A stretch of DNA of 64,000 nt, taken from positions 682,001 to 746,000 of the forward strand of contig NZ_CP096019.1 in NCBI RefSeq assembly GCF_023115355.1, given 5' to 3'. Below are positions 9,988-31,841 of the stretch, piece after piece. A program made the position numbers and the translations under genes. This DNA is from Halocatena salina (lineage in GTDB: Archaea > Halobacteriota > Halobacteria > Halobacteriales > Haloarculaceae). The notes below the pieces were generated by a model. The model saw nothing but the letters and a program-made list of their open reading frames with translations, was not told the DNA's origin and ran no database searches. The first letter of the stretch is position 1. Each line of letters opens with the position of its first letter.

Positions 9988-11169
9988 CTATGGGTCCCGA
10001 TGGACCTGTTCACCGGGGAGGGTAGTGGTACCAGGCGCGAGGACGACGCCCGGCGAGAGTGAGGTGTTAACACCAGTTTTAGCGCCATCACCCGCGACGA
10101 TTCCGTACTTTCGACGACCGGTCGACACGCGTTCGCCTTTGACTGTTTGTTCGATGGCTGTCCCGTCGTGGCGGAGGTTTGCGACCTGTGTGCCGGCACC
10201 GAGATTCACGTGTGGTCCGAGGAGACTATCGCCCACATACGAGAGGTGTGGCACGTTTGTATCGTGCATGAGAACGCTGTTTTTGATCTCGACGCCGTTT
10301 CCAACGTGGCAATCGGTTCCGATCCGGGTCGCACCGCGAACGTAGGTGTTGGGTCCGACGCTCGCCCCCGATCGAATCAACGCTGGTCCTTCGATAACAG
10401 TTCCGGCGTCGATCGTTGCGCCCTCCTCCACGACCACGGCGCCCCGAAGCTCTGCGCGCTCGTGGACTTCGCCAGCGACGTTTCGCTCGAGTCCGTCGAG
10501 TTTCCACTCGTTCGCTTCGAGGAGTTCCCACGGCCGACCCACGCCGAGCCACCTGTCGAGCTCGACCGCTCGAACGTTCTGGTGGTCGATGACGCGAGCC
10601 AGGACGTCCGTGAGTTCGTGTTCACCACGCTCGCTTTTGGGAACGTCGAGCCACTCGCGTGCGTCGGCGGGGAAAACGTACGCGCCTGCGTTCACGAGAT
10701 TGCTGGGTGGCTCCGTGGGTTTTTCGACGATTTCCGTGATGTACTCCTCTTCCATCGAGAGCACACCGTAGTCGCTCGGATTGTCGACCCGGACGGAGGC
10801 GACCGCTGGACCGCCCGAGAACAGTTCGGCCATGCTGTCCTGATCGTACAGGTCATCGCCGTTGAGCACCGCAAACGGCCCGGTGATGTGCTCTTTTGCG
10901 GCTCGAACGGCGTGGGCGGTGCCGAGCTGTTCGTCTTGGGTGGAATATTTGATTGGAACGCCACCGTAACGGTCGCCGAAATACGATTTGACGGTGTCTC
11001 CCTCATAGCCCACGACGAACACCAGTTCGTCGGCACCAGCGTCGATGGCTGCGTCTGCGGTGTGTGCCACGAGCGGCCGGTCGCCGACGGGTAACATCGG
11101 TTTGGGAGTCGAGTGGGTCAACGGACGCATCCGCGTCCCCTCTCCTGCTGCGAGGATGATTACCTGCAT
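9988..11169 (-). CDS. Bifunctional sugar-1-phosphate nucleotidyltransferase/acetyltransferase (GlmU-like)
   Basis: Makes nucleotide-activated sugars for the cell envelope and glycoproteins. The N-terminal 230 residues are a nucleotidyltransferase (MQVIILAAGEGTRMRPLT, then PKPMLPVGDRPL, and the ALNGDD-like VLNGDDLYD metal site). Residues about 250-393 form a left-handed beta-helix with hexapeptide repeats (GATIDAGTVIEGPALIRSGASVGPNTYVRGATRIG) like GlmU acetyltransferase domains. Whether it handles glucose, glucosamine or N-acetylglucosamine phosphate cannot be told. ATG 11169 begins the standard motif; upstream codons are unlike the family. Confidence 0.88.
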   Translation of the reverse strand: MQVIILAAGEGTRMRPLTHSTPKPMLPVGDRPLVAHTADAAIDAGADELVFVVGYEGDTVKSYFGDRYGGVPIKYSTQDEQLGTAHAVRAAKEHITGPFAVLNGDDLYDQDSMAELFSGGPAVASVRVDNPSDYGVLSMEEEYITEIVEKPTEPPSNLVNAGAYVFPADAREWLDVPKSERGEHELTDVLARVIDHQNVRAVELDRWLGVGRPWELLEANEWKLDGLERNVAGEVHERAELRGAVVVEEGATIDAGTVIEGPALIRSGASVGPNTYVRGATRIGTDCHVGNGVEIKNSVLMHDTNVPHLSYVGDSLLGPHVNLGAGTQVANLRHDGTAIEQTVKGERVSTGRRKYGIVAGDGAKTGVNTSLSPGVVLAPGTTTLPGEQVHRDP

Positions 11170-25323: not shown

Positions 25324-25690
25324 ATCCGTCTTCCAGTCCGCTCACACTATAATCTACCCGTCTAGTGGTGGCCTTCCGGTGTCGATGGCTATTTTGTGCT
25401 GGGTGGATATCATCCAGTCGTTCGCAAACGTGATCGAGCACGCACGGTTCGGCGACCAGGGAGCTGCTGTCTGGCGAGCGGTGGCGGTGTGGTTAATGGG
25501 AATACACTCACCGCAAGCGCTAGCGAGCGGTTTTTTAGTCCTCTCAGATGGACGACGTCCATCTGGGAGCCTGCAAGAGCGAAGCCCTTGGAATGTAGGT
25601 TTTTTGCGTTCGGGTGAACGAAGCTCACCACTCACGCAAAAAAAGTGGGTCTAGACTTCCGGAGTCGGTACCTATTTGTTGCTCTAACAA
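25324..25690. other. Spacer with hairpins upstream of the CHAT gene
   Basis: About 370 bases without a credible gene. A 73-codon plus-strand frame (25396-25617, ending PLECRFFAFG) overlaps the hairpins and may be the tail of a lost TnpB-like gene; this is weak. The glyA promoter must lie just right of 25323. Confidence 0.45.
25545..25643. repeat. Hairpin array (25.55 kb)
   Basis: CAGATGGAC-GAC-GTCCATCTG (25545-25565) is a perfect 9-base-pair stem with a three-base loop. TTTTTTGCGT (25600-25609) and ACGCAAAAAA (25634-25643) form a 10-base-pair stem enclosing GGTGA/TCACC. The T-rich arm could also act as a terminator. The geometry matches the arrays at 19.99 and 23.75 kb. Confidence 0.7.
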
Positions 25691-25705
25691 TACCAGTTAC
25701 TGGTA
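25691..25705 (+). promoter_or_regulatory. Perfect palindrome on the CHAT start codon
   Basis: TACCAGT-T-ACTGGTA, 7-base arms around one base. Its last base is the A of the chosen ATG at 25705. A bound dimer would block initiation of a leaderless transcript. The ligand is unknown; TbsP next door is a candidate. Confidence 0.5.
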
Positions 25706-27345
25706 TGAGTCGGGGCGTTGCCGGAGGGAGCCAATCGGTCAATCAGCCACTAGGTCCTGCCACGTTTACGATCCCCAAATCCCCAGAGGGCGTGGCGACG
25801 GCGATCTCAGTCCTCTCTGCCGGTCTGTCGACGACGGGCCCAGAGCGTTCGCACCCGGGCTACCGGATGCATCCACCGCTCGTTGAGGTCGGGACCGAAA
25901 CGTACGTGCCACCGCGCGTACGCCGGATGGTCCCACAAACGGAGATCGTCATCGACGTTCCTGCGAGCTATGACGAGCTGTTTGTAGTCGCGCCGCTCGC
26001 GTACTACCTCGGGGCTTCCGTCCGGATCGGCTCGGAAACACCCTGCATCCGCGCACCAGGCGTTCACCGTTCGTTCGGATCGTTACCTGATCTCAAATAC
26101 GAAGTGGCTGAACTGCTTCGTCGAGTGTTTTTCCTCGACTGTCTCGTTCGGGACGTTGCGGACGAGGAACCACCCTACGAGCGGGCCGCGCTCGGCGACA
26201 TTGGTCTCGACCCGGAGGCGTTGCGAACCGCAACGCCGGCCGAACGACTCTCGGCATATCTGGGGGTAAAGCAGGGAACGATCATGTCCAACCTCCCGAT
26301 GTGGCATCTCTCTACGTACGTCGCTCCCAGCCCCGATATGATCTCGTGTCTTCCGTTCTTGCTCGACGATCTCAGCCTCATCTATCCGCCCGATTCCGAA
26401 GACATGGATCGGAACGGGCTGTTACAACGAGCACTCGATGATTTCTACCGAGGACCGGTCGCATCGGTTGATATCGTCGCCCCCAAACTCCAACCGGCAG
26501 ATCTACACGCGTGGCTCGCCGACGACGTTCCGGCTGATGCGTACACGCCGTCGGTTCAGGCGTACCGCAACCGGCTGGCGACGTCCCTTCCCGAAACACC
26601 ACTCGACGTTACGGTCGTCCTCAACGACAGCATGATGGACGGGGAATACGAGGAGGTCGCAGAGGTCTATGACGACACCGACCAGACGACGACCATGCAC
26701 CGATCGGTGACCGTCGACGAGTTAGCACAGATCTTCGAAGCCGAATCGGATTTCGTCCACTTCATTGGACACTGTGAGGTCGGCGGGCTACAGTGTCACA
26801 ACGGCGAACTCGACATCGAGAGTCTTTCCTCAGTCGGCGCCCGTACGTTCTTCCTCAACGCCTGTGGCTCCTACTATCAGGGGCAAGCGCTCGTCGAGCG
26901 CGGAAGCGTCGCCGGTGCCGTCACGCTTCGGAAGGTGCTCAATAAACCGGCGATCCGCGTCGGAACGACGTTCGCTCGGCTGTTCGTCACCGGATTCGGC
27001 ATCGAACGCGCGATGCAACTCGCCCGCAGGCGGATCACGATGAGCACGGATTACGCCGTCGTCGGCGATGGGACGTACGCACTCACCGACGAGAAGGTCG
27101 CCGTAGCGCGTTTGAACAAAAACGGTAGAAATTACACGCTCAACTACACCGTCTCTCCGAACCGTCATCCCGGAGAGTGTTACTACGCGCCGTTCGAACT
27201 TTGGCCGCGGCTCACCGGCTCACAAGCGACGACCGATCTCGCCCCCAAGGACGTCCCGCGAGTTCTCGAATCGCTGTCCTGCCCGGTGATCCATGACGGC
27301 GAGCTCAGCTGGGCGGAGGACCTCGCTAATGATTTTTGTCAGTAG
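25705..27345 (+). CDS. CHAT-domain (caspase-like) protease
   Basis: 546-residue protein whose C-terminal half looks like a CHAT cysteine-protease domain. DFVHFIGHCEVGG places the catalytic His at residue 356, and FFLNACGSYYQG places the Cys at 387. Helices follow (VERGSVAGAVTLRKV, IERAMQLARRR). The N-terminal 330 residues show no TPR repeats and match no domain I know (YDELFVVAPLAYYLGASVRIG, LPMWHLSTYVAPSPDM). CHAT proteases act in stress and defence systems in other microbes; here substrate and trigger are unknown. An ATG at 25645 would add 20 hydrophobic residues inside the hairpin spacer; the palindrome and context favour 25705. Confidence 0.75.
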   Translation: MSRGVAGGSQSVNQPLGPATFTIPKSPEGVATAISVLSAGLSTTGPERSHPGYRMHPPLVEVGTETYVPPRVRRMVPQTEIVIDVPASYDELFVVAPLAYYLGASVRIGSETPCIRAPGVHRSFGSLPDLKYEVAELLRRVFFLDCLVRDVADEEPPYERAALGDIGLDPEALRTATPAERLSAYLGVKQGTIMSNLPMWHLSTYVAPSPDMISCLPFLLDDLSLIYPPDSEDMDRNGLLQRALDDFYRGPVASVDIVAPKLQPADLHAWLADDVPADAYTPSVQAYRNRLATSLPETPLDVTVVLNDSMMDGEYEEVAEVYDDTDQTTTMHRSVTVDELAQIFEAESDFVHFIGHCEVGGLQCHNGELDIESLSSVGARTFFLNACGSYYQGQALVERGSVAGAVTLRKVLNKPAIRVGTTFARLFVTGFGIERAMQLARRRITMSTDYAVVGDGTYALTDEKVAVARLNKNGRNYTLNYTVSPNRHPGECYYAPFELWPRLTGSQATTDLAPKDVPRVLESLSCPVIHDGELSWAEDLANDFCQ

Positions 27346-27433: not shown

Positions 27434-28246
27434 ATGCGTTCGAACATACTAGAATCGGGTGTCGAGGGTCTCCTGGAATCCGTTCTCGGGGACGCCACTG
27501 GCGAACTGTATCTGATCAATCCATCGCGTGAGATTCTGGAAGTGTCGATTCCAGCGATCGAGCAAGCGGAAGACGTTTCGGTGCGTCTCCTCGCTGGCGA
27601 GCGCGTTTTGAAGGACGTTCTCGACGATTTCATCGTCGGGAGCACTGCTGCAGATCTCATCGAAGCGGATCGACTCGCGCTCCGAACGTTCGACGAGCCG
27701 ACGAACACGCTCATCGTCTCCGATGATGCCGTGACGGCCGTCGTTTCCGCCGGTGGGAAGGTCGCCGGACTCGTGACCGACGATACGGAGTTCGTATCGG
27801 CCACCCGTGAACAGTACGAAAGTGAGTGGGACTCTGCGGAGCAGTTCAAGCTCCGAACGCCTCCGATCTCTCGCGTTCGATCGACGCTTTCCGAAGAGAT
27901 CGGTGCCGACGTGGCCGAGGACTTCGACGGCGTCCTCACCTCGCTCGAAACCGCACGCGGCAACGGCGAAGGACTAGACGAAGTCACCATCAGTCTACTC
28001 GTCGCGGCGAAAAACGAGGAGCTGCTGTACGACATCAGCAAATGGGGGGAAGATGTCGGCATTGCGAGCAAGGCGACGTTCTCGCGCACCAAAACCCGTC
28101 TCGAAGAGATGGGACTCGTCGACACCGAGAAAGTGCCGATCGACGTGGGTCGCCCACGCCTGCGTCTCATCCTCGGTGACGACCGGCTTCAGAGCACCAG
28201 CTCCGACGATCTCGCCAACGTCGCTCAGAGCTTGATGGCCTCCTAA
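27434..28246 (+). CDS. tbsP: Transcriptional regulator TbsP (DUF5821)
   Basis: 270-residue haloarchaeal regulator of the DUF5821 group, known as TbsP from work on suppressors of the sugar regulator TrmB. The N-terminal 150 residues resemble a sugar-sensor or TrmB-like domain (LYLINPSREILEVSIPAIEQAEDVSVRLLAGERVL, LIVSDDAVTAVVSAGGKVAGL). A C-terminal winged helix follows (ISLLVAAKNEELLYDISKW, IASKATFSRTKTRLEEMGLVDTEK, DVGRPRLRL). It probably controls central carbon genes. It has its own promoter 89 bases after the CHAT gene. Confidence 0.85.
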   Translation: MRSNILESGVEGLLESVLGDATGELYLINPSREILEVSIPAIEQAEDVSVRLLAGERVLKDVLDDFIVGSTAADLIEADRLALRTFDEPTNTLIVSDDAVTAVVSAGGKVAGLVTDDTEFVSATREQYESEWDSAEQFKLRTPPISRVRSTLSEEIGADVAEDFDGVLTSLETARGNGEGLDEVTISLLVAAKNEELLYDISKWGEDVGIASKATFSRTKTRLEEMGLVDTEKVPIDVGRPRLRLILGDDRLQSTSSDDLANVAQSLMAS

Positions 28247-28419: not shown

Positions 28420-30120
28420 ATGTCTGTCACTGTCGTCGGCTCCGGGCCTGCGGTAGATGCCATTGAGGCGGCCGTTTCCGACATTGATCACGAGTTATCC
28501 GTTCGATCAAGGGTCGAGACGCTTGCGGACGATCTCGCTGTCGTCGTGGGAGTAGTCGGATCGGACGTGTTCTCGATCGCAAACGAGGAGGCACGATCGA
28601 ACGGAACACCGTGGATTGCCGTCGAACTCGGCGGTATCGGGGGATGTTCCCATCCATCGGTCGACGTTGCCGTATCGGGCTATGGGGTTTCCACCGCGTG
28701 TTTCGATTGTCTTCGAACGCGCGTTCGATCCGGACTCGACGACTCAGAGGCTGATTCTTCCGATATTGACCCAGAAACGGCACGCTTTGGTGGTGCTCTA
28801 GCCGGACGGGAGACCGTCAAGACGGTGTCCGGATCGTCGTCGCTGTTCGGTCGCGTGATCGAGGTGCCACACGCACGGCGACGGATCTACTCCGTTCCGG
28901 GCTGTTCGTGTACGGGACACCGAGAGTGGACGCTGTCGAGAGCGCACGAGGAACGATCGTTACAGGCGACGCTCGAACGAGCCGAGCGAGCGGTCGACGA
29001 TCGGATCGGACTGATCAACGAGGTGGGTGAGGCCGAGTCGTTCCCGGTGCCGTACTACCTCGCACAGCTCGCCGACACTACCGGGTTCAGCGACGCGCAA
29101 GCGAGCCAACAGGCTGCCGGTGTCGCACTAGGATGGGACGAGGCGTTCATGAAAGCGCTCGGTGAGGGACTCGAACGCTACTGTGCTGGCGTGTACGATT
29201 CCGATGCCCTCTACACCGCACGCGCGGGGAATCTCTCGGCACCGATTCAGCCATCGACGTTCGTTCGTCCCGATGATCCGGATGACACCGCTCCGATAGA
29301 GTGGGTGCCCGGTGAAGATCTACACACCGGTGAGACGGTGTCTCTTCCTGCCGCCCGGGTGTTGTTCCCCTATGAAGGACCGGGACCGACCATCACGACG
29401 GGACTTGGACTCGGAAGTTCGGGCGCGGCGGCGTTGATCGCTGGGGTAACGGAGATCATCGAACGGGACGGTGCGCTGTTGGCGTGGTACTCGACGTACG
29501 AACCCCTGGAGCTGTCGATTGACGATGAGGAGTACGAGACACTCGTCGCCCGAGCAAGAGCGGAAGGGCTGTCGGTGACCGCGTCGCTGTTGACCCAAGA
29601 TGTCGATATCCCAGTGATCGGCGTGGCCGTCCACCGAGATGAGGAGTGGCCGGCGTTCGCTCTCGGTCTGGCAGCCGATCTCGATCCGATCGCTGCCGCT
29701 CGATCGGCGTGTACCGAAGCGCTTCAAAACTGGACGGAGCTTCGTCGGATGGGTAAAACCGGTTCCCGAAATGCTGGCGGCCGGATCGGTCATTTCGCAT
29801 CACGCCCACCCGCGACAGAGGAGTTCACTAACCCCAAGCAGACGATTCCAGCAGCGAGCATCGCGGCGGACGGTCCCACGGGAGCAGATGCGCTAGATCT
29901 GCTCCTCGAACGGCTCAGTGATGTCGGACTCGACGCTTATGCCGCCCGACTGACGACGCCGGACGTGGAGGCGCTCGGTTTCGAGGCCGTCCGTGTGCTC
30001 GTGCCACGAGCACAACCACTGTTCATCGGTGAGTCGTACTTCAGCGAGCGGGCGCGGACGGTTCCCTCAGAGCTGGGCTTCGAACCACGACTCCAGCGCG
30101 AACACCATCCGTATCCGTAG
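28420..30120 (+). CDS. YcaO protein with fused N-terminal E1-like domain
   Basis: 566-residue protein. The first 190 residues resemble the degenerate E1/ThiF-like domain of azole-peptide cyclodehydratases (VTVVGSGPAVDAIEAAV, STACFDCLRTRV; a CxxC plus CSCTGH may bind zinc). Residues about 190-560 are a YcaO domain, which uses ATP to activate a peptide backbone amide: GWDEAFMKALGEGLERYCAG, GLGLGSSGAAALIAGVTEIIERDGALL, ARSACTEALQNW carry the ATP-site Glu residues. The C-terminus ends HHPYP, reminiscent of the PxPxP tails of cyclodehydratases. No TfuA partner or precursor peptide is visible within a few kb. Thioamide, azoline or another amide modification are all possible. Confidence 0.85.
   Translation: MSVTVVGSGPAVDAIEAAVSDIDHELSVRSRVETLADDLAVVVGVVGSDVFSIANEEARSNGTPWIAVELGGIGGCSHPSVDVAVSGYGVSTACFDCLRTRVRSGLDDSEADSSDIDPETARFGGALAGRETVKTVSGSSSLFGRVIEVPHARRRIYSVPGCSCTGHREWTLSRAHEERSLQATLERAERAVDDRIGLINEVGEAESFPVPYYLAQLADTTGFSDAQASQQAAGVALGWDEAFMKALGEGLERYCAGVYDSDALYTARAGNLSAPIQPSTFVRPDDPDDTAPIEWVPGEDLHTGETVSLPAARVLFPYEGPGPTITTGLGLGSSGAAALIAGVTEIIERDGALLAWYSTYEPLELSIDDEEYETLVARARAEGLSVTASLLTQDVDIPVIGVAVHRDEEWPAFALGLAADLDPIAAARSACTEALQNWTELRRMGKTGSRNAGGRIGHFASRPPATEEFTNPKQTIPAASIAADGPTGADALDLLLERLSDVGLDAYAARLTTPDVEALGFEAVRVLVPRAQPLFIGESYFSERARTVPSELGFEPRLQREHHPYP

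Positions 30121-30186: not shown

Positions 30187-31841
<1,655 letters not shown>

Follow-up and report, generated by a model that had tools for sequence, protein, structure and literature searches.

What does the YcaO protein encoded at positions 28420..30120 (+ strand) of the 64,000-nucleotide stretch of Halocatena salina DNA analyzed here (the window) act on, and with which chemistry? YcaO enzymes carry out an ATP-dependent phosphorylation of a backbone amide oxygen. Attack by a Cys, Ser or Thr side chain then yields an azoline, and attack by sulfide a thioamide. The open reading frame is exact at these coordinates and encodes a protein of 566 aa, which the first-pass annotation had read as an E1-like region fused to a YcaO region, acting either in the biosynthesis of a RiPP or in the modification of a cellular protein.

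The gene is orthologous to the published haloazolisin ycaO, and its family is thus already known; orthology to the Haloferax mediterranei gene was judged by description, position and one-copy universality. Previous studies described the haloazolisin YcaO as a haloarchaeal, truncated C-D fusion without the leader-binding region (Cox 2015, PMC4603692; Costa 2023, PMC9953058). Costa 2023 deleted ycaO in H. mediterranei and reported the gene in all haloarchaea (PMC9953058). Growth of the deletion strain was normal, and apart from FTIR shifts and slightly enlarged halos no phenotype was reported (PMC9953058), so any role of the gene is not essential under those conditions. New here are the distribution of the gene in 391/392 genomes and its tracking of organismal families, together with the finding that a conserved linked precursor, dehydrogenase and TfuA are lacking and that the leader-binding half is missing.

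The gene was found in 391/392 haloarchaeal genomes, representing 83/84 genera, and was mostly single-copy. The sole genome without it, G218, is 92% complete and forms a family of its own (f11). Outside the class, among the matches listed in the phylum, similarity was confined to the YcaO region (query residue 179 onward, ≤77 bits). A tree of the YcaO sequences required 11 changes for 11 taxonomic groups, the minimum being 10 and the mean after shuffling 37.7, and this nearness to the minimum is consistent with vertical descent; the YcaO trees were quick trees, with long branches in some rows (L087, L038 and several accessory rows). As a RiPP control, the profile of the class II lanthipeptide synthetase LanM showed a patchy distribution (8/97 genomes). 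The H. salina genome itself carries two genes for class II lanthipeptide synthetases (DUF4135), at G000:C3:388991-390154 and G000:C1:1452604-1453755. In a plasmid collection the universal type of ycaO occurred once, on a 987-kb Natrinema replicon, and accessory types were found on Haloplanus and Halorubrum plasmids. The Natrinema copy (CP031304.1:616657-618228) is 53.7% identical over residues 64-566, and no annotated gene is listed there.

The YcaO domain occupies residues 237-531 (29128..30012, + strand), where the protein matched the Pfam profile PF02624 with an E of 1e-46. Three ATP/Mg motifs were located on the same strand: KALGEGLER with K245, E249, E252 and R253 (29152..29178, +), a second with E345, E348, R349 and D350 (29452..29469, +), and a third with E433, Q436 and E440 (29716..29739, +). 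All of these residues are invariant in 67/67 orthologs, except for K245 (66/67). The catalytic motifs are intact, and the domain with its ATP/Mg-binding Glu, Arg and Gln residues places the protein in the YcaO superfamily. One ortholog, at locus L075, carries an acidic low-complexity insertion of ~45 aa inside the domain, and a similar split match was seen in a genome of the same genus (G061).

The first-pass annotation had pointed to a comparison with TIGR03604, the SagD profile. This was the best NCBIfam profile for the window protein (E 1.8e-64), which reached 218 bits, just short of the 219.25 set as cut-off, and it matched 57/57 relatives (best E 2.7e-86). The profile for McrA-glycine thioamidation, TIGR03266, remained below its cut-off of 365 bits (87 bits, E 9.2e-25), and that for S12/uL16-type YcaOs, NF040716, gave a marginal match in only 3/57 relatives (best E 0.007). 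The window genome contains no RimO match over cut-off and no McrA. A link to RimO was therefore rejected, and the annotation's own counter-proposal, a YcaO subfamily with another established role such as that associated with RimO, does not apply.

The protein ends in HHPYP (30103..30117, + strand), which bears out the suggestion of a tail of the cyclodehydratase type: HP[YF]P forms the extreme C-terminus in 66/67 orthologs. At the exception, L097 (genome G085), ycaO appears to be frameshifted near the C-terminus (split match), through either a sequencing error or real decay. An HPxP end was present in 0/20 McrA-type YcaOs of the same phylum, where the lone sequence flagged by the pattern ends in PKPSR and has no such tail.

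These results bear on the possibility that the enzyme forms thioamides, i.e., that it converts a backbone amide of a conserved protein into a thioamide, in the manner of the McrA and Escherichia coli uL16 enzymes, with sulfide supplied by general metabolism. The YcaOs so far known to act on cellular proteins form thioamides (PMC13063428), the E. coli YcaO likewise works without TfuA, and the near-universal, vertical and slowly diverging pattern is the same. However, the profile is SagD-type rather than McrA- or uL16-type, the tree placed the universal YcaO apart from the McrA-type group, the tail is that of cyclodehydratases, and TfuA was found in 0/97 genomes. We therefore regard thioamide formation as unlikely.

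Residues 1-174 (28420..28941, + strand) form a truncated E1/ThiF-like (C-protein) domain. With the window protein alone, the N-terminal match to E1 profiles was below threshold (TIGR03603, E 0.34). At the level of the family the homology is real, as the first-pass annotation had supposed, and the refuting case it had named, an N-terminus without E1-like homology, does not apply: TIGR03882 matched 13/57 relatives (best E 2.2e-8), and a family profile aligned with LynD over residues 124-231 (domain E 0.014) and with MoeB (E 0.066). A profile-profile comparison (hhalign) with haloarchaeal TOMM C proteins gave a probability of 98.9 and an E of 1.2e-17. The fold claim is carried by an AF2 model of residues 1-174 (pLDDT 81, pTM 0.83), for which the best Foldseek matches, by query length, were the E1-like parts of LynD (TM 0.68) and TruD (0.64), followed by MccB, ThiF, MoeB and UBA5. 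The full-length model was poor (pLDDT 53, 7 sequences), and its fold search served as support only. TIGR03693 (ocin_ThiF_like) had no match in 59 genomes, in which the control had no match either.

In C proteins, the half that precedes the E1 fold carries the leader-binding element. Residues 2-175 of the universal protein paired with positions 142-347 of the C-protein template in the hhalign comparison, and the first 141 positions had no counterpart. Because the alignment starts at template position 142, the protein begins at the start of the E1 fold, and the N-terminal leader-binding (RRE) half, ~140 residues of C proteins, is missing from it. Cox 2015 likewise noted a truncation of the haloarchaeal protein (PMC4603692).

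The E1-like domain contains two cysteine pairs that may form a Zn tetrathiolate, C94-x-x-C97 (28699..28710, + strand; 63/67 orthologs) as the first half of the putative site and C162-x-C164 (28903..28911, + strand; C162 in 63/67, C164 in 62/67) as the second. Four orthologs, at L074, L078, L085 and L096, lack all four cysteines. Their joint loss fits one metal site, and it suggests either that Zn binding may be dispensable or that the N-terminus is decaying in these sequences.

A truncated E1 half, the appearance of MusD among the best structural matches and the mild phenotype of the deletion (PMC9953058) would agree with a protein that is non-catalytic or acts otherwise, e.g., in ATP-dependent peptide cleavage as MusD does, or as a scaffold. 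A mere scaffold is disfavored by the catalytic residues, which are invariant across deep divergence, and nothing specific speaks for MusD-like proteolysis; we consider either role very improbable.

The neighborhood of the gene is only partly conserved. The transcriptional regulator gene tbsP (27434..28246, + strand; NF047393, E 1.9e-117) lies upstream of ycaO on the same strand in 40/67 loci, with glyA (SHMT) further upstream in the window. In family f3, however, tbsP, glyA and folD were near ycaO in 0/20 loci. We therefore rejected tbsP as a functional or operon partner and do not think that this conserved upstream neighbor is a chemical partner. Between glyA and tbsP, the window encodes another 566-aa protein (25645-27345), which resembles CHAT domains weakly (E 1.7e-4, below cut-off) and is conserved at this place in 24/67 loci. 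Across the 67 loci, no gene follows ycaO everywhere. The GNAT acetyltransferase gene downstream in the window (30187-30669), the product of which resembles ArsN2 (E 1.7e-21, below cut-off), was present after ycaO in 2/67 loci only and was rejected as a partner.

The first-pass annotation had reported no precursor, TfuA or dehydrogenase nearby, and this was confirmed over a wider sample. No dehydrogenase, protease or transporter, partners that TOMM clusters often but need not contain, was among the conserved neighbors of the universal ycaO, TfuA was absent as described above, and a short-ORF scan of 63 loci, run with a positive control, found no conserved precursor. The short ORFs that did recur around the universal gene looked, by eye, like shadow frames rich in Arg, antisense frames or tRNA-like read-throughs, and were rejected.

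The control came from the haloarchaea themselves. Some genomes carry a second YcaO, at ~25-36% identity. In most of the 22 accessory loci (L098-L119), a C protein is encoded upstream and a SagB-type dehydrogenase is also present, the profile assignments having been checked for four proteins. The short-ORF scan of the 22 accessory YcaOs recovered precursors in nine loci, belonging to two families that are rich in Cys and Thr; one ends ...PACCSAAGNSDVTVLDP, and the other has cores such as GGVSTCTTTSTCRGTTTSTTVSTN. Since the scan finds precursors at accessory loci, its negative result at the universal locus is informative. At L098 (core 11071-11127) and L099-L102, the precursor is acidic, ~70-80 aa long, with a conserved, leader-like start GISEWIRKQVGPEAENRG and the end CCSAAGNSDVTVLDP; these cassettes comprise C protein, YcaO, SagB and precursor, and they likely represent a genuine azole-peptide family. 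Precursors of the second family (MKLE.E...GV.PI.GGVSTC, with a Cys/Thr/Ser-rich core; L108:6759-6878, L111:6219-6341, L113:6683-6808 and L116:12188-12310) adjoin genes for SagB, C protein, YcaO and ABC transporters, and their products are candidate linear azole peptides of haloarchaea.

The universal and accessory enzymes also differed in conservation. Among six genomes that carry both types, the universal YcaO was the more conserved in 15/15 pairs (median 62% vs 32%), a comparison that is supportive only, given that genome pairs are non-independent and the accessory set mixes subtypes. Slow divergence has been described for YcaOs with a static protein substrate as compared with RiPP enzymes (PMC13063428).

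A genuine RiPP enzyme, in the sense of haloazolisin or as the maker of a universal RiPP-derived cofactor, would have to rely on an unlinked precursor and on a separate, unlinked leader-binding protein. Both the E1-like domain and the tail are TOMM-type, and cassettes that include precursors do exist for the accessory YcaOs of haloarchaea. However, the 63 loci yielded no conserved precursor although the positive control worked, and stand-alone leader-binding C proteins were patchy and lay mostly within accessory clusters; TIGR03882 was over its cut-off in 7/97 genomes, where five of the places correspond to C proteins from accessory clusters and one to the universal protein (G021). Likewise, the precursors proposed by Costa 2023 differ among Haloferax species, overlap folD and carry stop codons in two species (PMC9953058). 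Because the gene is near-universal, mostly single-copy and vertically inherited and has neither a leader-binding half nor a linked precursor, a RiPP enzyme is disfavored, and we judge it improbable. Universality by itself would also fit a conserved cofactor of RiPP origin whose precursor is unlinked.

Altogether, of the alternatives raised at the outset, the RiPP enzyme lost ground and the modification of a cellular protein is favored. We infer a housekeeping modifier of a cellular substrate, acting by side-chain attack or through an unspecified nucleophile, and hold this to be somewhat more probable than its negation. The missing leader-binding half, the missing precursor and the universality of the gene favor a conserved protein as the substrate. 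The SagD-type profile, the tail and the retained E1-like domain favor an azoline as the product, though azoline formation specifically has, in our estimate, a little less than an even chance. The same E1-like domain also characterizes peptide-modifying cyclodehydratases and as such counts against a cellular protein. We think that the target is a conserved cellular protein, or a conserved peptide encoded elsewhere, and that the enzyme is not at the center of a local RiPP cluster.

In the mechanism that we propose, a conserved protein substrate would be recognized directly, with the truncated E1-like domain serving as a docking and activating scaffold that replaces the leader-binding module. The YcaO domain, with ATP/Mg, would phosphorylate a backbone amide oxygen of the substrate, and a neighboring Cys, Ser or Thr side chain would then close the azoline ring. 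It is conceivable, if not quite probable, that throughout the haloarchaea the universal YcaO introduces an azoline (or thioamide) into a conserved cellular protein.

The near-universal occurrence of a peptide-natural-product enzyme throughout an archaeal class suggests a protein or cofactor modification still to be discovered. If a cellular protein is indeed the substrate, it would join McrA and uL16 as the third protein substrate of YcaO enzymes and, if the product is an azoline, be the first heterocyclized cellular protein of such kind, to our knowledge. Genome-mining annotations in which the universal ycaO is scored as a RiPP cluster throughout the haloarchaea would need correction, and the gene would be separated from the azole-peptide clusters that are likely real.

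Among known systems, haloazolisin is the closest: as here, its gene lies near an upstream gene (unnamed there, tbsP here) and SHMT and is found in all haloarchaea. It was published as a TOMM cluster with precursors, whereas no linked precursor was found for the gene described here, which, unlike in that cluster framing, stands apart from genuine accessory TOMM cassettes. The accessory SagC/SagD/SagB cassettes (L098-L119) share the YcaO superfamily and a similar tail, and their C proteins match the universal N-terminus, but they encode discrete C and D proteins, are linked to SagB in most cases, and are patchy and sometimes plasmid-borne. The fused cyanobactin heterocyclases LynD and TruD, the best fold matches, likewise have an E1-like domain followed by YcaO, but they possess an N-terminal leader-binding domain, which the window protein lacks, and act on a cluster-encoded precursor, whereas no precursor was found here. 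Finally, the E. coli YcaO (uL16 thioamidation) and the McrA-type YcaOs resemble the proposed enzyme in having cellular-protein substrates, no local precursor and wide conservation in their clades, but they belong to other YcaO subfamilies, and the E. coli YcaO has a TPR domain.
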